From: Pseudomonadota bacterium
Lineage (GTDB): Bacteria > Desulfobacterota > Desulfovibrionia > Desulfovibrionales > Desulfomicrobiaceae
Direction: 5' to 3'
Assembly: GCA_018902545.1 (NCBI GenBank)
Contig: JAHIQM010000005.1
Location: 62,001 to 126,000, forward strand
Length of the DNA stretch: 64,000 nucleotides
Position 1 is the stretch's first letter; every line of letters begins with the position of its first letter. The position numbers were made by a program, and so were the translations under genes. The notes beneath the pieces are model-generated. The model saw nothing but the letters and a program-made list of their open reading frames with translations. It did not search any database and was not told where the DNA came from. This document shows positions 17,421 to 25,689 of this stretch, piece after piece.

Positions 17421-18266
17421 TCATAGGCGCTGGTAGGTGGCCGGAGCCATCTGTTTGAGCGGCAGGTCCGCTCCGGCCAGACTTTCTGAATGGCCGATGA
17501 AGAGGTGACCGCCGGGTTCAAGGTGGTTGCAGAATTTCCGGACCAGCTCGTGCTGGGTCTTTCTGTCGAAATAGATCATCACGTTGCGGCAGAAGATGAG
17601 GTCCATCTTTTCGCGGAACTGAAAATCATCCATGAAATTGAGCCGTCTGAAGCTGACCTTGTCGCGCAGTTCCGGGAGCACGCGGACCATCCGCCTGCTC
17701 TTGTCCTTGCTGCGCAGCAGGAACCTGCGCCTGAACTCCAGCGGAATAGTCCCGATTCTTTCCTCTTCATAAATGGCGCGTGAGGCTTTTTTGAGGATAT
17801 CAGTGGAGATATCCGTGGCCACGATGCTGAAGCGCAGGGGGCTTATCCGCTCGTTGTAGTCCATGAGAGTCATGGCCGTGGTGTAGGGCTCCTCGCCTGA
17901 CGAGCAGCCCGCGTTCCAGACGGCGAAGGTCTGGCCGGCGTGTTTTTTCTGCCACTGGGGCAGCACGATCTGGGTAAGGTACTCGAAATGCTTCGGCTCG
18001 CGGAAGAAGCTGGTGGTGTTGGTGGTCACTGCGTCGACCATCTGCGGCAGCTCCACCTCCAGGCCTTTGAGCGACTGCAGATACTCCAGATACTGCCCAT
18101 AGGACTTCATGTTCAGGGTGCGCAGCCTGCGTTGCAGCCGGGCCTGCAACATGGTCCTCTTGGTCTGGGTGATCTTGATGCCGAGCTCCGAATAGATGAA
18201 CTCGCTGAACTGCTTCAGTTCCTTGTCGCTCATCAGCGGGGCGGTCTGGGTGTTCGGGTCGTACAT
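17421..18266 (-). CDS. cheR: Chemotaxis protein methyltransferase CheR
   Basis: A 281-residue two-domain CheR. The N-terminal helical domain (FSEFIYSELGIKITQTKR, RLQRRLRTLNMKSYGQYL) is followed by the SAM-binding methyltransferase (TNTTSFFREPKHFEYL, NAGCSSGEEPYTTAMTL, ATDIS, DLIFCRNVMIYFD). It methylates glutamates on chemoreceptors using S-adenosylmethionine. It is the last gene of the minus-strand chemosensory operon and starts 5 bases after the cheA stop, so it is probably translated by coupling; its own ribosome site is weak. A CheB partner lies about 20 kb away at 38393 and a CheD at 40296. Confidence 0.95.
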   Translation of the reverse strand: MYDPNTQTAPLMSDKELKQFSEFIYSELGIKITQTKRTMLQARLQRRLRTLNMKSYGQYLEYLQSLKGLEVELPQMVDAVTTNTTSFFREPKHFEYLTQIVLPQWQKKHAGQTFAVWNAGCSSGEEPYTTAMTLMDYNERISPLRFSIVATDISTDILKKASRAIYEEERIGTIPLEFRRRFLLRSKDKSRRMVRVLPELRDKVSFRRLNFMDDFQFREKMDLIFCRNVMIYFDRKTQHELVRKFCNHLEPGGHLFIGHSESLAGADLPLKQMAPATYQRL

Positions 18267-18271
18267 GGCTT

Positions 18272-20344
18272 TCAGGCGGTGAGGGCTGCGATATCAAGGA
18301 TGAGCGCCATGCTTCCGTCGCCCTTGATGGTCGCCCCGGAGATGCCGCGCACGTCCTGGTAGACCTTGCCCAGGCTCTTGATGACGGTCTGGTGCTCGCC
18401 GATGACCCGGTCCACCACAATGCCGATGCGCCGCCCCTGGGAATTGCAGACCACGACCTGCTCAATCTCCGGACTCTGTCCCGGGATGTCGAAGCCCGTG
18501 CGCAGGCTGACGTAGGGCACCATCTGCCCGCGCAGGTTGATGAGGTCGGCGCGGCCCTGGTCCTTGCGGATGAGTTCCACGCATTCTTCCACGGCGGACA
18601 GCGGCATGATGAAATAGCTGTCCTCGACCTGAACCTGTAGGCCGTCGATGATGGCCAGGGTCAGGGGGATGCGCACGGAAATGGTGGTGCCCTGTCCGGG
18701 CACGCTCTCAAGCGAGACGCGGCCGCGCAGGGCGTCGATGTTGCGCTTGACCACGTCCATGCCAACGCCCCGTCCGGAAACGCTGGTGACCTTTTCGGCC
18801 GTGGAAAACCCCGGTGCGAAGATGAGCATGAGGGTGTCTTTGTCGGAAATTAGGGCGTCCGGGGGAATGACCCCTTTTTCCACGGCCTTGGCCCGGATGC
18901 GCTCGGGATCAATCCCCGCGCCGTCGTCGATGATGCGGATGAGCACCTCGCCCCCGGAATGTTCGGCGGACAGCTCGATGCGGCCTTCGGGATTCTTGCC
19001 CCTGGCCTGGCGCTCCTCGGGGCTCTCGATGCCGTGGTCGATGCTGTTTCTGAGCAGGTGGACCAGCGGATCGTTCAAACGCTCGATGACGGTTTTGTCC
19101 AGTTCCGTGTCTTCACCGTGGGTTTCAAGCACGATGCGCTTGCCCAGTTCCTGGGACAGGTCGCGGACAAGCCGCTTTAAGCGGCTGAAGGTGGAGCCGA
19201 TGGGCAGCATGCGGATGCCCAGGGTGTTGTCGCGCAGTTCGTCGGACAGGCGTTCGATCTCCTCGGAGATGGCCTGCAGCCTGGCGTCGTTCTGTTCGCT
19301 GGCAAACTGGGTCAACCGCGCCTGGGCCGTGACCAGTTCGCCGACCAGATCGACCAGAAAATCAAGTTTTTGAGCCGGGACGCGGATGCTCGAAGTCTGC
19401 GCTTCGGCGCTGGCGGTCTGGCGCAGGCGCTTGACCTCCTGCTGTTCGACCAAAGCCGCCTCGACCTGGCTGGCGCTGACCAGTCCAGCTTCAGACAAGA
19501 GTTGCCCGATGGGCTTTCGTTCCAGCAGAATGCGTTCAAGGGCGTCCTTGGTGATGTCGTTTTTCTCGACCAGGATCTGACCGATGAGCTTGTAGGATTC
19601 CTCGTCGATGCCCTGGCAGCTTCCGACCATCTGGATGGTCAGGTCGCTGTCCTCCTCCACGAAGATGAACACGTCGCGGATATCGTCCTCGCTCCTGGCC
19701 GTGGTCAGGATGACGTCCCACCACACCATGCAGTCCTCGGGGTTGAACCGGGACAGGGGGGGGATATCCTTGGTGTGCATGATGACGTGATGTTCGCCCA
19801 TCTCGCACAGCTCTTCCAGCAGGGAAGCGGGGTTGGTCCCGCTCATGAACAGATTTTTCGGCGGGGCAAAGCGAATGCGCCAGGTGTTCATGGACGGGTC
19901 GGTGGCGCAGGTCGCGGAACCATCCCGGACTGCAGGGCTTTTCTGCGCAGGCTCCTGGACCGGAGTCAGGGCCTTGAGGCCCCTGATGACCTCTCCGGCC
20001 CGCTCGCCCAGACCGTGTTCCTCGCCTTCGAGCATGGACAGGATGTGGTCCCTGGCCAAGAGCGTCAGATCAAGGAGCTCTTTGGAAACTGAAATCTGAC
20101 CATTACGCGCCAGGTCGAAAACAGTCTCGACCTCATGCGTGAAGGAGGCGATGTCCTCGAAGCCGAACATGGCGCCGGAACCCTTGATGGTGTGCATGGC
20201 GCGAAAGACGCGGTTGATGACTTCGTCATTGGCGGGATCTTCCTCCAGTTCGAGGAGGGATGTCTCCAATTCGCCAAGAAGCTCCAGGGCTTCTTCCTTG
20301 AACGCCTGCCGGTTCAGTTCTTCTCTGGACATGTTTTGCTCCAC
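18272..20344 (-). CDS. cheA: Chemotaxis histidine kinase CheA
   Basis: A 690-residue CheA. It has an HPt domain with His51 in AMHTIKGSGAMFGF; a central region (about 150-245) in the P2 position; and two tandem MshEN-like units (about 252-304, IGQILVEKNDIT and IGQLLSEAGLVS). These are followed by the dimerisation helix (QKLDFLVDLVGELVTAQARL), an HATPase (HLLRNSIDHGIE, DDGAGID, GRGVGMDVVKRNI) and a CheW-like domain (VVCNSQGRRIGIVVDRVIGE). It autophosphorylates and passes phosphate to CheY and CheB. ATG at 20342-20344 is the longest start, but Met5 (20332) is better placed after GGAG. The gene sits between cheY and cheR. The MshEN-like insertion is not in classical CheA. Confidence 0.95.
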   Translation of the reverse strand: MEQNMSREELNRQAFKEEALELLGELETSLLELEEDPANDEVINRVFRAMHTIKGSGAMFGFEDIASFTHEVETVFDLARNGQISVSKELLDLTLLARDHILSMLEGEEHGLGERAGEVIRGLKALTPVQEPAQKSPAVRDGSATCATDPSMNTWRIRFAPPKNLFMSGTNPASLLEELCEMGEHHVIMHTKDIPPLSRFNPEDCMVWWDVILTTARSEDDIRDVFIFVEEDSDLTIQMVGSCQGIDEESYKLIGQILVEKNDITKDALERILLERKPIGQLLSEAGLVSASQVEAALVEQQEVKRLRQTASAEAQTSSIRVPAQKLDFLVDLVGELVTAQARLTQFASEQNDARLQAISEEIERLSDELRDNTLGIRMLPIGSTFSRLKRLVRDLSQELGKRIVLETHGEDTELDKTVIERLNDPLVHLLRNSIDHGIESPEERQARGKNPEGRIELSAEHSGGEVLIRIIDDGAGIDPERIRAKAVEKGVIPPDALISDKDTLMLIFAPGFSTAEKVTSVSGRGVGMDVVKRNIDALRGRVSLESVPGQGTTISVRIPLTLAIIDGLQVQVEDSYFIMPLSAVEECVELIRKDQGRADLINLRGQMVPYVSLRTGFDIPGQSPEIEQVVVCNSQGRRIGIVVDRVIGEHQTVIKSLGKVYQDVRGISGATIKGDGSMALILDIAALTA

Positions 20345-20349
20345 GGGGG

Positions 20350-20712
20350 TTAACGCAGCAATTTCTTGGCTACTGCCAGGAGCTGATCGGGCTTGAACGG
20401 CTTGACGATCCAGCCGGTGGCCCCGGCGGCCTTGCCTTCTTCCTTGGTAGAAGCCTGGGATTCCGTGGTCAGCATGACGATGGGCACGAACTTGTACTGG
20501 GGCGTGGCGCGTACAGCGCGGATAAATTCGATGCCGTTCATGTTGGGCATATTGAGGTCGGTCACGATCATGTCCACCGGTCCGGTCAGTTTGGCCAGCG
20601 CATCCTTGCCGTCGCAGGCCTCAATGACCGTATAACCGGCGTCTTTGAGTGTCAGGCTGACCATCTGACGGACGCTGGCTGAATCATCAACCGTCATTAT
20701 GGTTTTGCTCAT
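20350..20712 (-). CDS. cheY: Chemotaxis response regulator CheY
   Basis: A single receiver domain of 120 residues with the acidic pair in TVDDSASVRQM, the phospho-acceptor in MIVTDLNMPNMNG, the signalling Thr/Ser in MLTTESQ and the lysine in WIVKPFKPDQL. The sequence is of the PleD/CheY type found in chemosensory operons of deltaproteobacteria. It would diffuse from CheA to the flagellar switch or another effector. Its ATG overlaps the stop of the STAS gene (ATGA), and GAGGA lies upstream. The stop is 5 bases before the cheA start. Confidence 0.95.
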   Translation of the reverse strand: MSKTIMTVDDSASVRQMVSLTLKDAGYTVIEACDGKDALAKLTGPVDMIVTDLNMPNMNGIEFIRAVRATPQYKFVPIVMLTTESQASTKEEGKAAGATGWIVKPFKPDQLLAVAKKLLR

Positions 20713-21026
20713 ACGTTTTCCTCTGTTCGGCTCGATATTTCCTTGATGAGGCTGTCCGCTCCAAGGCTCGCCGCAGTCTCAAAGAGATGGGCGGGCAGGT
20801 TCGCGAAGATGGTCGTTGTGTTCGGTTCCTTGAGCAGGGCGCATAAAATCTGAACGAAAGACAGATCCGACTTGTCCGTTTCCCCCAGGTCAAGGGTTAC
20901 GGAGCCGTTTTTGGGCAGGCGGGCCAGCAGTTCAGAGTGAATTTCCCTGCAGTGTTCCAGGGTCAGGCTGCCGGAAAGCTGTATGATCGGATGGTCCGCA
21001 GCGCCCGTGACTGTGCATGAAAACAT
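20709..21026 (-). CDS. STAS-domain protein
   Basis: A 105-residue protein resembling STAS/anti-sigma-antagonist proteins: PIIQLSGSLTLEHCREIHSEL, then SVTLDLGETDKSDLSFVQIL and a C-terminal amphipathic helix region. The DLS..DLSF segment sits where phosphorylatable Ser/Thr occurs in SpoIIAA-like proteins. AGGAG precedes the ATG, and the stop overlaps cheY as ATGA. STAS proteins in chemosensory operons are known, but their role varies; here it may modulate the CheA complex or a separate partner-switch. No RsbW-like kinase is in the window. Confidence 0.8.
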   Translation of the reverse strand: MFSCTVTGAADHPIIQLSGSLTLEHCREIHSELLARLPKNGSVTLDLGETDKSDLSFVQILCALLKEPNTTTIFANLPAHLFETAASLGADSLIKEISSRTEENV

Positions 21027-21041: not shown

Positions 21042-22952
21042 TTAGAAAAGTTCCACGTTGTCGCCGAGATCCTCTTCCGGTTCCGGCCGCTTTTTTCCGC
21101 TGCCTGGCGGGGTGCCCGCCTTGGACGCCGCGGGCTGGTCATCAAAAAGCTCCACGTTGTCGTCACCGAAAAGCTCAACATCGCCGTCGTCAAAAAGATC
21201 GACATCGCCACCGTCCTGAACGTCGCCGTGGTGGTGGCCGAGCACGGACAAGTGAACCAGACGCTCGCTGTCCATGGTGTAGCGGGAGAGCTGCTCCCGC
21301 AATTTTTCAGGCTGTCCGGCCGAGTCCAGCAGCGTCTGGAAGGGGACGAAACGGTCCTCCAACACCTTGACTTCCTTTTCAAGCGCCAACAGCTGTTCCG
21401 CTACCAGTTCATGGAAATGGATGGAAGATGTCAAGGCGCTGATTTGCGAGACCAGCCCCGTGCCGAGCCCCGAGAGCTGCCGGATGTCTTTTTCAAGCTT
21501 CGCATCCAGGCTGGAGAGTTGACTGAGCACGGTTTCAAAGCGGCCCTGCAGGGCTCCCACCATCTCGGACACGTCCGAAGATCTGGCCAGGGAGGAGAGG
21601 CGATCGGCCACAGCGGAAATTTGGTTCAGGATCTCGGCCACTGTGGCCGTCCTGGTGCGGGCGCTTAAGGAAAGATTCTGGATTTCCATGGCGATCACGC
21701 CCAGGGTGCGCCCCTGCTCCCCGGTGTGAGCGGCCTTGACCCGGGCATTCAATGCGATGAGTTCAATTTCGGACCCGATATCCTCGATGCCGCGCACAAA
21801 CGTGCTGACCGTGGAAATGGTCTCGGCCATGTGCGACATGGTTTTGGATGTTTCCGAGATCTGCGTGCTCGTGGTCCGCATGGCGTTCATCACTTCGGCA
21901 ATGTGGTGCCGGATGGCGTCAAGAATGGAGCCGCCACCTTTGGTGTCGGCGTAGGCCACGGCGGTGATCTTGCCGTGCAGGCCCGTGATGCCGTGGCCGA
22001 TGGAGTCCAGGTTGCCGATCAATTCATCTACGGCTCCGGAGAACATCTCCTGGGCTTGACGCAGTTGGGGAGCCTGGAGCCTCAGCACGTCTCGCACCCA
22101 GGAAGCCAGCCCTGCATCGACGTTTTCCTTGTCCGCCTGGGAAAGCTCATGGGCGGCCTGATGCAGAATCTCCTCAACGTGTTCGACCTGTTGGCGGGTG
22201 ATGTCGTGGAATTGCACCGAGGCGATAACCTGCCCCATGCTTTCGGTCACCTGCCGCGAGCCTAGGGCCAGATCCTGAACCAGGCCGGCCGACTCGGCGC
22301 GCATGGATTCAAGTTCGGAAATTCCGGCGAAAAGCTGGGTAAACATGTCTTCGACGATGCGCTTGCGGGATGCGGCCTGCATCTTGCCGCGTTCCCCGGC
22401 AACAGAGACCTGGGTCATGAGCTGGGTCGAATGCACGCGGATCTTCTCGGTGTGATCGTCGATGGTCGTGCCCAACGCCCTGACGTCATCGGCCAGGGTG
22501 GTGAACCCGGACCCGGCGCTGCCAAGACGCGCGCTCTCGATGCGCGTGGTGATCTCAAGCACCTTCAAGGTCTGCACCAGGGTGAAAAATTGGGCCATGG
22601 CCTGATCAAGGCCGCGGATCAGCCCCAGCACCTCGGCCATGCCTTCCAGTTGTTCGGTGGAAGAAACAGAAGAAAACACGGCCCTCGCTTCGTCGGCGCG
22701 GGCCTGCAGTTCGCCGATAGCCGCCTGCAGGGCGCCCTCGCCCACGGAAGAGGCCATGGCGGATGCCGTTGAGGAAAACGTGTTCGCTTGCGAGTTGATT
22801 CCGAAAATAGTGGCGCCGAGACCGAGAAAGTCATCCTCCCTGTCCTTGATGACGCTTGCAAGGCGAGGCAGCAGCACGGGCAGGTCGTTGGCGGATCCCT
22901 GCATCACGGATCCGAGTCCGGACAGAGGAGGCGCGGTGTCGTCTTGAGGCAT
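21042..22952 (-). CDS. Soluble MCP-like coiled-coil protein with CheZ-type motif
   Basis: A 636-residue protein with no membrane span. I start at Met 22952 (AAGGAC upstream); the longer start at 23003 lies inside a hairpin. Numbered from 22952, it contains two MCP-tip-like hairpins: one at about 126-166 (ITTRIESARLGSAGSGF, LADDVRALG) and one at about 394-435 (IELIALNARVKAAHTGEQGR). Between them is QFHDITRQQVEHVEEIL, in which Asp250 and Gln254 match the DxxxQ spacing of the CheZ phosphatase site. The tail holds four V-D/E-L-F units at about 584-587, 592-595, 600-603 and 633-636, the last at the extreme C-terminus. It lies between cheW and the STAS gene. It may be a cytoplasmic receptor, a CheY-P phosphatase, or both. 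Confidence 0.8.
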   Translation of the reverse strand: MPQDDTAPPLSGLGSVMQGSANDLPVLLPRLASVIKDREDDFLGLGATIFGINSQANTFSSTASAMASSVGEGALQAAIGELQARADEARAVFSSVSSTEQLEGMAEVLGLIRGLDQAMAQFFTLVQTLKVLEITTRIESARLGSAGSGFTTLADDVRALGTTIDDHTEKIRVHSTQLMTQVSVAGERGKMQAASRKRIVEDMFTQLFAGISELESMRAESAGLVQDLALGSRQVTESMGQVIASVQFHDITRQQVEHVEEILHQAAHELSQADKENVDAGLASWVRDVLRLQAPQLRQAQEMFSGAVDELIGNLDSIGHGITGLHGKITAVAYADTKGGGSILDAIRHHIAEVMNAMRTTSTQISETSKTMSHMAETISTVSTFVRGIEDIGSEIELIALNARVKAAHTGEQGRTLGVIAMEIQNLSLSARTRTATVAEILNQISAVADRLSSLARSSDVSEMVGALQGRFETVLSQLSSLDAKLEKDIRQLSGLGTGLVSQISALTSSIHFHELVAEQLLALEKEVKVLEDRFVPFQTLLDSAGQPEKLREQLSRYTMDSERLVHLSVLGHHHGDVQDGGDVDLFDDGDVELFGDDNVELFDDQPAASKAGTPPGSGKKRPEPEEDLGDNVELF

Positions 22953-23008: not shown

Positions 23009-23500
23009 CTAGTTTGCCGTTTCCAATTCTTCAGTGCTGCGCATGACCTGCAACTCCTCCGCGGAGAAGACCTTGCCGATGTCGAGGATCATGATGAACT
23101 CCTCGTTCTGCTTGCCCATGCCTCGGATGAAGTCCGCGCGGATGGACGTGCCCATGCGCGGCGGCGGGTTGATCTGGTCGCTGGTCATCTCGAAGACTTC
23201 GCGTACCGAGTCAACTATCGCGCCCATGTAGCAGTTTTCTCCTTCGACTTCCACATCAACTATGATGATGCAAGTATTTACCGTGTCGGCAACCTTGGGC
23301 ATGTCGAATTTGATGCGCAGGTCGACCACGGGAACTGCGTGGCCGCGCAGGTTGATGACCCCGCGCATATACGGCGGAGTCTTGGGAATGCGGGTCACGG
23401 ACACGAGTTCGATGACCTCGCGCACCGATCCCGTCTCCAGTGCGAATACCTCCTCGCCAAGGCCGAAGGTCAGGTACTGCAGGGTAGTGTTGTCACTCAT
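23009..23500 (-). CDS. cheW: Chemotaxis coupling protein CheW
   Basis: A 163-residue single CheW domain: YLTFGLGEEVFALETGSVREV at the start, then RGVINLRGHAVPVVDLRIKF and CYMGAIVDSVREVFEMTSDQI, all typical. It bridges chemoreceptors and CheA. A near-perfect AAGGAGGTGA precedes the ATG. It is the second gene of the operon, 23 bases after the MCP gene. Confidence 0.96.
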   Translation of the reverse strand: MSDNTTLQYLTFGLGEEVFALETGSVREVIELVSVTRIPKTPPYMRGVINLRGHAVPVVDLRIKFDMPKVADTVNTCIIIVDVEVEGENCYMGAIVDSVREVFEMTSDQINPPPRMGTSIRADFIRGMGKQNEEFIMILDIGKVFSAEELQVMRSTEELETAN

Positions 23501-23523: not shown

Positions 23524-25554
23524 TTAGAAGCGTTCGAATTCATCGTCTTCATCGTCCCGTCCCATGTCGAGAGCCAAGCCGCTGGAGGCACCTTTGGAGG
23601 CCAGGGCCTTGGGAGCCTTTTTGGCGGCCTGGGGCTTGCCTCGCCGAGATGTCGCCTGGCGCGTGACGCGTGCCGTCGTGGCGCCCAGATGGAAGAAGGC
23701 GATGGAGGACTGCAGCTGTTCGGCCTGACTGGACAGCTCTTCGGAGGTGGAAGCCATCTCCTCGGAGGCCGATGCGTTCTGCTGAATGACCTGGTCGAGC
23801 TGCTGCAGGGCCTTGTTGATCTGCTCTGCGCCCGCGTTCTGTTCGTTGGACGCGGCGGAGATCTCCTGCACCAATTCGGCTGTACGCTGAATGTCCGGAA
23901 CCAGCTTGATCAGCATCTGCCCGGCCTGGTCGGCAACGGTCACCGTGGAGGAGGACAGTTCGCTGATCTCGGCTGCGGCCGTACCGCTGCGTTCGGCCAG
24001 CTTGCGCACTTCCGCCGCGACTACGGCAAAACCCTTGCCGTGTTCACCGGCGCGGGCGGCCTCAATGGCGGCGTTAAGCGCCAGCAGGTTGGTCTGGCGG
24101 GCGATCTCTTCGACGATGGAGATCTTTTCCGCGATGTTCTTCATGGCGCCCACGGCCTGAACCACGGCCTTGCCGCCAGCTTCGGCGTCCAGCGCGGCCT
24201 TGAGCGCGATTTTCTCGGTCTGGGTGGCGTTGTCGGCGTTCTGGCGGATGTTGGAACCCATCTCTTCCATGCTCGACGATACTTCTTCCACAGAGGCGGC
24301 CTGCTCGGTCGCACCCTGGGAGAGCTGTTCAGCAGAGGCGCTCAGCTCCTCAGAGCCCGAGGCCACGTTGTCCGAGGCCGACTGCACCTCGCCGACGATC
24401 TCACGCAATTTCGCGACCATGTCGCGCAGGGCTTGGGCCAGGATGCCCACTTCGTCTTTCTGGTCCACATCGAGCTTGGCGGTCAGGTCGCCCTGGGCCA
24501 GCTTGCGGGCGAATTCCACACCCTTCTGCACCGGACCGGTTATGCCCTTGGTCAGGAAGATGGCGACGACGATGCCGATCAGCACGCCGATGGCGAGTCC
24601 GCCGATCATGACCCGTTCGGCCATGGCCAGGTTGGCCACCGCGACATCGGCGATCTTCTTGGTGCCGTCGAGCCCTGCCACCGCTGTGTCCTGAGCGGCC
24701 TCCAGGGCTTCTGTACCGACCTTAGCGCGTTGTACGTTGATGCCCTCAAGGGTGGACCAGTTCTTTTGCAGGCTGAGCATAGCAGCGCGATAGTCGGCGC
24801 CGGCTTTCTGGACCGCCTCCATCTGCCTGAGGTTGGCGGGGTTGCGGATCGTCGGAGTCAGCTGGGTGAAGACGGCGTCGATCTTGACGAAATTCTCCAT
24901 AGCCTTGTCGATCTGGGCGAGTTCGCGTGTGGCTTGCGCACGCCAGACACTGATCCGGGTTTCATTGCCCAGATCAACGACTTCGTTCATGAGATTGATT
25001 TTCCAAACCCGCTCTTTGAGGGCCTCGGGCGCGGCGTTCTCTGAGATTTCCCTTTCCATGGCCTCGTTCATGCTTCCCAGAAAGGCTGCACAGTTTTCCA
25101 TGAAGGAGGCTGCGGCACTGTTCAAGGCGTCGCGGTCGGCATTCATGGCGTTGACCAGGGTCTCTGTCTGTTCCGAGAGGGCTGCGTAGGCGTCGACCCG
25201 TTCCCTGGCTTCCTGTGCGTGTTCCTTGAGGGCAACAAGGGCCGGGTAGGTTTCGGCGTGCTTTTTAGCCTGATCCAGGGCCTGTAGGGTCGCGGCGAGC
25301 TGTTTCTTGCCTTCGACCAGGAAGGATTCCTGTTCGGTGAAGGCGTATCCGCGCCAGGCGTACATGGTCAGCAGGGCCGAGCGTTCCACCAGGTTGGCGA
25401 TGCCGACTTCAGGTACATACTCGTTGGCCAGCCGGCTTGAATCTTTCTCCACGTTCATCATGTTGACCACGGCCATTGCGCCAAGGGCGCATGCGATCAG
25501 AATCAACACACCAAATCCGCCCCCGATCTTGATCCCCAACTTGATGTTTTTCAT
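23524..25554 (-). CDS. Transmembrane methyl-accepting chemotaxis protein
   Basis: A 676-residue receptor. I start at ATG 25552-25554 because AAGGAGGGGGGG is immediately upstream; the longer frame to 25608 has no site. TM1 is about 8-30, followed by a helical periplasmic domain, TM2 ([20 protein letters not shown]), HAMP, and the MCP signalling domain with the conserved tip [20 protein letters not shown] and [18 protein letters not shown]. The C-terminal tail is a long basic/flexible linker ending [10 protein letters not shown]. Its last five residues (EFERF) match the x-aromatic-xx-aromatic pattern of CheR/CheB tethers. It is the first gene of the operon and presumably its dedicated receptor; the ligand is unknown. 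Confidence 0.94.
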
Positions 25555-25689
25555 TCCCCCCCTCCTTGTGAGTGAAGCAGCGAAAATTCGCCTGTCAGGA
25601 TACACCACGCTCCGATTGGACGGACTTGAACGGTCTCGATGCCGAGAAGGCCAGGTTCTTCCTACACGGATTTATTCATCAAAAGCCAG

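Follow-up and report, generated by a model that had tools for sequence, protein, structure and literature searches.

Introduction

In the chemotaxis scheme known from Escherichia coli, receptors control only the kinase and a separate protein carries out dephosphorylation. The mechanism of CheZ depends on two side chains, a Gln that is inserted into the CheY active site and places the attacking water, and an Asp that orients CheY. CheZ is described as a hairpin bundle that carries this D/Q pair together with a CheY-binding C-terminal helix and an AXXFQ motif beside DXXXQ (PMC7750401). The report on CheT of Sinorhizobium meliloti shows that there are remote DXXXQ phosphatases (PMC12654446). The three Geobacter genomes studied in PMC2577667 are described as having no cheZ, and of three cheA mutants of Desulfovibrio vulgaris, the cheA3 mutant alone is reported to have lost its motility halos (PMC3944678).

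Here, we analyze a chemosensory operon within a 64,000-nucleotide stretch of DNA (the window). An earlier note on this DNA had proposed that the third gene of the operon encodes a soluble protein with two separate receptor-tip hairpins and a CheZ-type DxxxQ motif, which might serve both as cytoplasmic receptor or scaffold and as CheY-P phosphatase. Computation supports the anatomy, the duplication, the conservation, the synteny and, at the level of the family, a match to CheZ in the region of the motif.

Results

A receptor-like protein with two hairpins

The operon reads MCP, CheW, double-hairpin gene, STAS_2, CheY, CheA and CheR, with the double-hairpin gene in third place (Table 1). Its coordinates, reading frame and D250/Q254 numbering had been given correctly, and the statement that the operon is devoid of cheZ, cheC and cheX agrees with Pfam scans of the seven genes, which returned none of the three. 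The MCP of the operon ends in EFERF and the neighbouring double-hairpin protein in NVELF. The STAS_2 gene, located between the double-hairpin gene and cheY, overlaps cheY by four bases. The CheA contains two MshEN-like repeats of the c-di-GMP-binding type at about residues 250-310, between its Hpt and dimerisation domains (IGQILVEKNDITKDALERIL and IGQLLSEAGLVSASQVEAAL). These repeats match NCBIfam NF053729 with an E value of 5e-8 and 32.6 bits, under the cut-off of 38. Among 75 related CheA frames, a rough expression for such repeats found one or more in 30 and two or more in 5.

Table 1. Coordinates of the operon genes and of features in the double-hairpin protein (positions in the window; residues numbered from the start of that protein)
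Feature	Position	Strand	Basis
HAMP-containing MCP ending EFERF, CheR-tether type	23524..25557	(-)	
cheW	23009..23500	(-)	PF01584
Double-hairpin MCP-like protein gene with CheZ-type motif, 636 aa	21042..22952	(-)	ATG at 22952 behind AAGGA
Half A, residues 30-290, motif-bearing receptor-like hairpin	22083..22865	(-)	hhalign of A vs B; AF2 model of residues 20-292
Half A tip, residues 127-152, TRIESARLG..G.GF	22497..22574	(-)	Alignment; structural match to Tsr 340-441
CheZ-type motif QFHDITRQQVEHV, residues 247-259, D250/Q254 at the place of CheZ D143/Q147	22176..22214	(-)	Conservation and hhalign register
Half B, residues 291-555, second receptor-like hairpin	21288..22082	(-)	PF00015 best stretch 359-474; hhalign with half A
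Half B tip IELIALNARVKAAHTGE, residues 394-419	21696..21773	(-)	
IHFHELVAEQ, residues 511-520, duplicated motif without the D/Q pair	21393..21422	(-)	
YTMDSER, residues 558-564, conserved Y[TV]M..[EQ]R element	21261..21281	(-)	
Tail, four [DN]V[ED]LF copies, the last at the C-terminus (DNVELF)	21045..21230	(-)	pLDDT <50 for residues 573-636 (AF2 whole-protein model)
STAS_2 domain gene	20709..21026	(-)	PF13466
cheY, presumed substrate, phospho-acceptor Asp52 by homology	20350..20712	(-)	PF00072
cheA	18272..20344	(-)	Hpt, H-kinase_dim, HATPase_c and CheW domains
cheR	17421..18266	(-)	PF01739

Both MCP-like hairpins of the encoded protein (the window protein) are borne out by our analysis. The Pfam MCPsignal model (PF00015) scores 63.7 bits against a cut-off of 34.6, with its best stretch in half B; half A lies outside this stretch, and its AF2 model superposes on the cytoplasmic domains of MCPs. 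The same model matches all 12 relatives from a protein search at E values up to 1. Pfam detected no sensor domain in the window protein, no CheC or CheX family was among its Pfam matches, and the CheZ profile (PF04344) gave no row for it at E values up to 10. The maximum 19-residue hydropathy is 1.19, and the protein is therefore taken as soluble, as had been proposed. The tips of both halves are non-canonical for CheA/CheW contact (TRIESARLG in half A, LNARVKAAHTG in half B), presumably departing from MCPs at the contact positions themselves. Half B has K and H at what we take to be the places of Tsr E385 and R388, so array docking may be weak.

Fold models were used alongside the profiles. 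The AF2 model of the whole protein, built with 12 sequences (pLDDT 79.5, pTM 0.52), has helix breaks at residues 247 and 511-512 and a tail that is probably disordered, and half A modeled alone (pLDDT 76.8, pTM 0.41) passes through the motif with no helix break. Half A (residues 20-292) aligns with 2ch7_B at Z 13.5 and rmsd 3.3 with 257 aligned, and with Tsr 340-441 at rmsd 1.3 over 101 residues. The first five rows of its fold search are MCPs (Z 12.8-13.5), followed by an Smc coiled coil at 12.6, and the search with the full model placed the unrelated helical TTYH2 (Z 16.8) above the best MCP signalling domain (Z 9.7). Because unrelated helical proteins and Smc score near or above MCPs, Z values for helical bundles such as half A are only supportive. 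CheZ was not among the 50 matches listed in any of the fold searches.

The two halves look like a tandem duplication. Aligned to each other with hhalign, they match at 95.9% (E 5.6e-9) over 221 columns, in which the two tips coincide and FHD pairs with FHE. Our tree covers a selection of A and B halves (19 each), single-hairpin relatives (n=17) and ordinary MCPs (n=12), and it sets the A and B halves apart together from the remainder (support 0.876), with 0.999 for the B halves and 0.657 for the A halves; the single-hairpin relatives do not form one clade. In addition, the Y[TV]M..[EQ]R element, present in 42/42 double-hairpin proteins and 18/20 single-hairpin relatives, follows the motif by 304-339 residues in the former and by 49-59 residues in those 18 of the latter, a difference of about one hairpin.

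Conservation of the motif

Relatives of the window protein were collected with the whole protein, tail included, as query. The 12 found in the protein search lie on contigs of Desulfomicrobium, Halodesulfovibrio, Nitratidesulfovibrio, Desulfovibrio, other sulfate-reducer bins and Geomesophilobacter; one comes from a bin labelled Bacteroidota, and its sequence is identical to one from a Deltaproteobacteria bin. A genome of the window's genus and a Desulfomicrobium contig encode an identical protein, which suggests that this genus is Desulfomicrobium. A class-wide genome search, also run with the tail included, found the double-hairpin form in 56 of 199 genomes (full-length rows, counted by hand).

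The sequence QFHDITRQQ stands between the two MCP hairpins of the window protein. Its D250/Q254 spacing equals that of D143/Q147 in E. coli CheZ, as the earlier note had pointed out, and the two proteins have the F-x-D-[LI]-T-x-Q context in common. The DxxxQ pattern occurs three times in the window protein versus 2.6 times in shuffles, and the motif alone is therefore uninformative; QxxDxxxQ is expected 0.155 times. Our family alignment comprises 42 sequences (the window protein and 41 relatives, 40 of the 42 distinct). D250 and Q254 are kept in all of them, and the other two DxxxQ in just 4 and 11. Q247, H249, D250, I251, R253, Q254, E257 and H258 are invariant, and the residues of the CheZ context are found at frequencies of 42/42 for D and Q, 40/42 for F and 18/42 for T (V in 21). 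The second copy of the element has lost the pattern, as had also been noted, with E515 and E519 instead of D and Q. Burial of D250/Q254 in the coiled coil had been named as an observation that would speak against a phosphatase. On a helical wheel, which draws on sequence only, the hydrophobic face is 151-169 degrees away from D and Q in double- and single-hairpin forms, compared with 139-179 degrees in CheZ, so that a buried pair is not suggested and the predicted outward orientation resembles that of CheZ.

Relatives with a single hairpin

A profile of residues 88-275 of the window protein, with the tail excluded, was searched across the genomes of the phylum. It matches in 221 of 395 genomes at E 1e-8, where many of the weak matches may be ordinary MCP arms. 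Beyond the order, 34 genomes still match with E values of 1e-33 or better. Twenty of these strong matches were fetched, and they are frames of 524-842 aa with a tail of the same type as in the window protein. Twenty intermediate matches, with frames of 410-491 aa, were hand-picked, other intermediate rows, among them those of G400, G434 and G442, being left out. In each of these single-hairpin relatives (n=20) the most hydrophobic stretch, with values of 1.8-2.7, falls close to the N-terminus, and a near-canonical MCP tip is seen in all 12 that were printed in full. Q-x-x-D-x-x-x-Q follows 113-117 residues past the tip, and each of the 20 ends in [IV][ETV][LFY]F, one with an extra Ser. An alignment of the module from 17 of these relatives, three near-duplicates being excluded, has only four invariant columns, the three specified residues of QxxDxxxQ and the Phe at the very end. 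A CheY-like match lies near all 20.

The same architecture is found on alpha- and betaproteobacterial plasmids, in Methylobacterium currus, Methylosinus trichosporium and Sphaerotilus sulfidivorans, where the motif lies 118-121 residues past the tip and the proteins end in PMIELF, PRIELF and PKIELF. The Methylosinus protein, which carries QFQDIVRQ ahead of its PRIELF end, is devoid of a hydrophobic segment. Its gene adjoins that of a response-regulator transcription factor, and no cheA is annotated in the 12.4 kb seen. A search with half A hit 15 plasmid records. Of the five that were inspected, two have the architecture, two from Azospirillum contain no QxxDxxxQ, and one from Salinivibrio has QLGDINYQ 86 residues past the tip and no such tail. 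A tblastn search of plasmids with the module of one single-hairpin relative (L166) returned nothing at E 0.01.

The link to CheZ runs through the single-hairpin relatives

For comparison with CheZ, we assembled a set of the 30 best-matching CheZ loci from the class and E. coli CheZ. The motif module of the single-hairpin relatives aligns with this set at 93.9% in hhalign (E 1.6e-7, one pairwise value that is uncalibrated against a database), with FQD..RQ on FQDLTGQ, and their tip region at 0.5%. The module scores 47.5, versus at most 19.8 for 150 column shuffles and 23.7 for the arms of 32 ordinary MCPs. The Pfam CheZ model matches two single-hairpin relatives across the motif with E values of 1.6e-4 and 2.8e-4, below the cut-off (best score 21.4 bits versus 30.7), and 2 of the 12 window-protein relatives with a best E value of 0.023. 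When the module profile was run against PDB sequences, CheZ (1kmi) appeared among unrelated coiled coils with a non-significant E value of 0.89.

Half A of the window protein aligns with the module of the single-hairpin relatives at 98.5% (E 2.1e-15) and with CheZ at 13.6%. Its score against CheZ, 23.8, is above shuffles (at most 19.9) and no better than the ordinary-MCP control of 23.7. We therefore do not propose direct CheZ homology for the window protein, and claim the CheZ link only through its single-hairpin relatives. As the window protein has neither a CheZ tail nor a CheZ score, it is not filed as a CheZ.

A C-terminal peptide that accompanies the motif

All 42 aligned double-hairpin sequences end in N[VI]ELF. 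The peptide is present in at least two copies in 21 of them and in up to eight in one protein of the window's genus, and tails of wider relatives also read NVDLF, NVEFF and GVELF. Co-occurrence of motif and tail was counted in 167 MCP-like proteins from loci selected for the motif, the single-hairpin proteins among them not being selected for the tail. A first scoring gave 101 proteins with motif and tail, 2 with the motif only, 1 with the tail only and 63 with neither. The motif-only rows (L084 and L110) are chance matches far ahead of the tip, and the tail-only row (L089) has QFHDITRQK behind Ala, which the regular expression missed; the corrected count is 102 with both and 65 with neither. 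A stricter recount, with the motif placed 95-140 residues past a recognised tip, gave 88 with both, 14 with the tail only and 65 with neither. In these 14 rows a diverged first tip was missed, and the 12 that were printed all contain the motif. Among 2270 other frames of the same loci, the motif occurs in none and the tail in 2.

Aromatic tether-type pentapeptides (EFERF and others) end 34 motif-free MCPs of the fetched loci. Since the tail travels with the motif and motif-free MCPs carry tether tails, we regard the tail as a separate docking peptide, for which CheY would be the first candidate partner, by likeness to CheZ. In the window's own genome DN[VIM]ELF followed by a stop was found once, and a looser tail-plus-stop pattern gave 8 matches across the whole genome versus 10 for a reversed control, which is no excess.

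Neighbouring genes and other phosphatases

CheA lies on the same strand at 48/48 double-hairpin loci, with CheY at 43, CheR at 39 and CheB at 35, and BLAST finds a STAS gene near 11. No CheZ was found within 7.5 kb at these 48 loci, as far as the contigs extend. Five loci (L105, L106, L107, L109 and L114) have the double-hairpin gene and cheA with no detected CheY nearby. In neighbouring CheY frames of more than 50% identity (n=78), a regular expression found Asn at D+2 in all 78 and Glu at T+2 in 62, which we take to be the equivalents of N59 and E89 in E. coli CheY.

Within the window's genome, CheA matches are confined to C4 and C3; they are the CheA of the operon and, on C3, a frame of 1063 aa that shows similarity to receivers and lies next to CheB and CheR. 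The sole CheZ match lies at C18:43293-43592, a contig with no CheA match, three CheX are located on C14, C5 and C2, and a genome-wide search found no CheC match. More broadly, 51 of the 56 class genomes with the double-hairpin form also have CheZ (lists compared by eye; the CheZ-less G133, G135 and G148 were called negative by absence from the positive list). Among the 20 single-hairpin genomes, 10 have CheZ over the cut-off and 9 have CheX, and G251 and G306 have neither. With CheZ in 51 of the 56, we reject the idea that the window protein replaces a missing CheZ. The presence of CheZ and CheX elsewhere in the genome makes the argument from an absent cheZ weak, and the proposed site would be additional to other phosphatases and local to the array.

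Discussion

Our preferred reading is that the window protein is an array-linked CheY-P phosphatase, built as a pseudo-dimer of receptor hairpins with a docking tail, to which we assign a probability of roughly 0.55. The receptor array itself may thus help to end the signal. The dual role put forward in the earlier note is retained in part: the conserved QxxDxxxQ, the adjacency of cheA and, at most loci, cheY, the D/Q pair predicted to face outward and the match of the single-hairpin relatives to CheZ speak for it, and the comparison of half A with CheZ, at the level of ordinary MCP arms, and the weakness of the cheZ-absence argument speak against it. The idea is plausible, and its support is stronger from the relatives than from the window protein itself. 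The note had not mentioned the conserved C-terminal tail with its repeats, the internal duplication or the single-hairpin receptor relatives.

Array docking, CheY binding and catalysis are steps that we infer for the window protein, and they could be connected as follows. Tandem duplication would have joined two chemoreceptor hairpins into a natural pseudo-dimer on a single chain, a soluble protein which likely sits with the CheA-CheW-receptor array. In hairpin A, the descending arm would bear the CheZ-type active site on its outside, with Gln254 reaching into the active site of CheY to position the attacking water and Asp250 orienting CheY. The N[VI]ELF C-terminal peptide, repeated in the window's genus, could keep CheY-P near, as the different peptide of CheZ does. 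Hairpin B, which has lost the D/Q pair, would be structural. The net result would be that the CheY of the operon is dephosphorylated at the array.

Other functions would fit parts of this evidence. The protein could be a CheY-docking scaffold or sink with no useful catalysis, in which the motif face and the tail concentrate CheY or CheY-P, or compete with the motor, and D and Q are retained for binding. The conserved tail, with its multiple copies in the window's genus, resembles avidity, and most genomes examined carry another CheY phosphatase, yet strict retention of a catalytic-type D and Q in single- and double-hairpin forms exceeds the needs of binding, and we consider this explanation unlikely. 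The site may instead act on another response regulator, such as CheB or a CheY-like protein, or the tail may bind the STAS protein, CheA or CheB. A STAS gene stands between the double-hairpin gene and cheY and recurs near a minority of the relatives (11/48), 5/48 loci have no detected CheY, and the Methylosinus relative adjoins a response-regulator transcription factor; against this, only CheA is a more constant neighbour than CheY-like genes (43/48 for the double and 20/20 for the single form), which leaves a different target quite improbable.

We give little credence to a third explanation, in which the protein is a diverged receptor or structural array component whose tail is an NWETF-type CheR tether and which has no phosphatase role. 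NVELF does have N, E and F in common with NWETF at the extreme C-terminus, cheR belongs to the operon, and MCPsignal matches the protein. A tether is nevertheless disfavoured, as tether-type tails (xFxxF) sit on the motif-free MCPs of the fetched loci and [IV]x[LF]F occurs there only with the motif, internal copies of the tail need no free C-terminus, and PMC2577667 gives EFEKF as the CheR tether of class 34H MCPs. That the motif is a chance DxxxQ in a coiled coil, unrelated to CheZ, would suit its unremarkable DxxxQ count and the low hhalign value of half A, but is highly improbable in view of its conservation in 42/42 sequences, its invariance in 17 single-hairpin relatives and the module of the latter, which beats its controls against CheZ.

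Returning to an array-linked phosphatase, a broader reading is that a second CheZ lineage has been built into chemoreceptors, in which MCPs and their soluble tandem-duplicated descendants carry a CheY-P phosphatase site within the signalling hairpin itself and a dedicated CheY-docking C-terminal peptide. We raise this tentatively and would not back it at even odds. If it is true, the array both drives phosphorylation and, possibly under signal control, ends it, and the double-hairpin form is a natural single-chain receptor dimer. A phosphatase site in a receptor hairpin would put the signal and the control of its termination at one place, would supply a phosphatase to clusters that have no cheZ of their own, and would make receptor regulation of CheY-P dephosphorylation directly testable. 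For annotation, the signature is an MCP hairpin, Q-x-x-D-x-x-x-Q 113-117 residues past the tip and a C-terminal [IV]x[LF]F, to which most single-hairpin forms add Y[TV]M..[EQ]R about 50 residues past the motif. Judged by titles and the openings of abstracts, none of the open-licence papers listed in our searches describes an MCP with a CheZ-type motif, a weak sign that this combination is unpublished.

Among known systems, CheZ (PF04344; 1KMI of E. coli) has the same-spaced F-x-D-[LI]-T-x-Q on a helix face that points outward by helical wheel, and both proteins have a linker and a conserved C-terminal peptide, with the CheZ likeness around the motif shown by the single-hairpin relatives. Unlike in CheZ, the site of the window protein is fused into MCP hairpins that are tandem duplicated, with one site per chain, its tail reads N[VI]ELF whereas the CheZ proteins from these genomes have VDDLL..LG or VDELL..LG at their C-termini, and it falls below the Pfam cut-off of the CheZ family (30.7 bits). 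Both halves align with the cytoplasmic hairpins of MCPs (PF00015), including the soluble 3g67 of Thermotoga, but the window protein differs from these in having two hairpins per chain, diverged tips and a CheZ-type motif, and in having no Pfam sensor domain, membrane-like segment or tether-type pentapeptide. CheT of S. meliloti, a remote DXXXQ phosphatase that acts on one of two CheY proteins and has a CheZ-like fold prediction, is likened to the window protein by description only; it is described in complex with CheR, and the parts of that report available to us do not mention receptor hairpins (PMC12654446). The engineered single-chain chemoreceptors described in PMC4692393 carry two receptor halves per polypeptide, as the window protein does, but are artificial.
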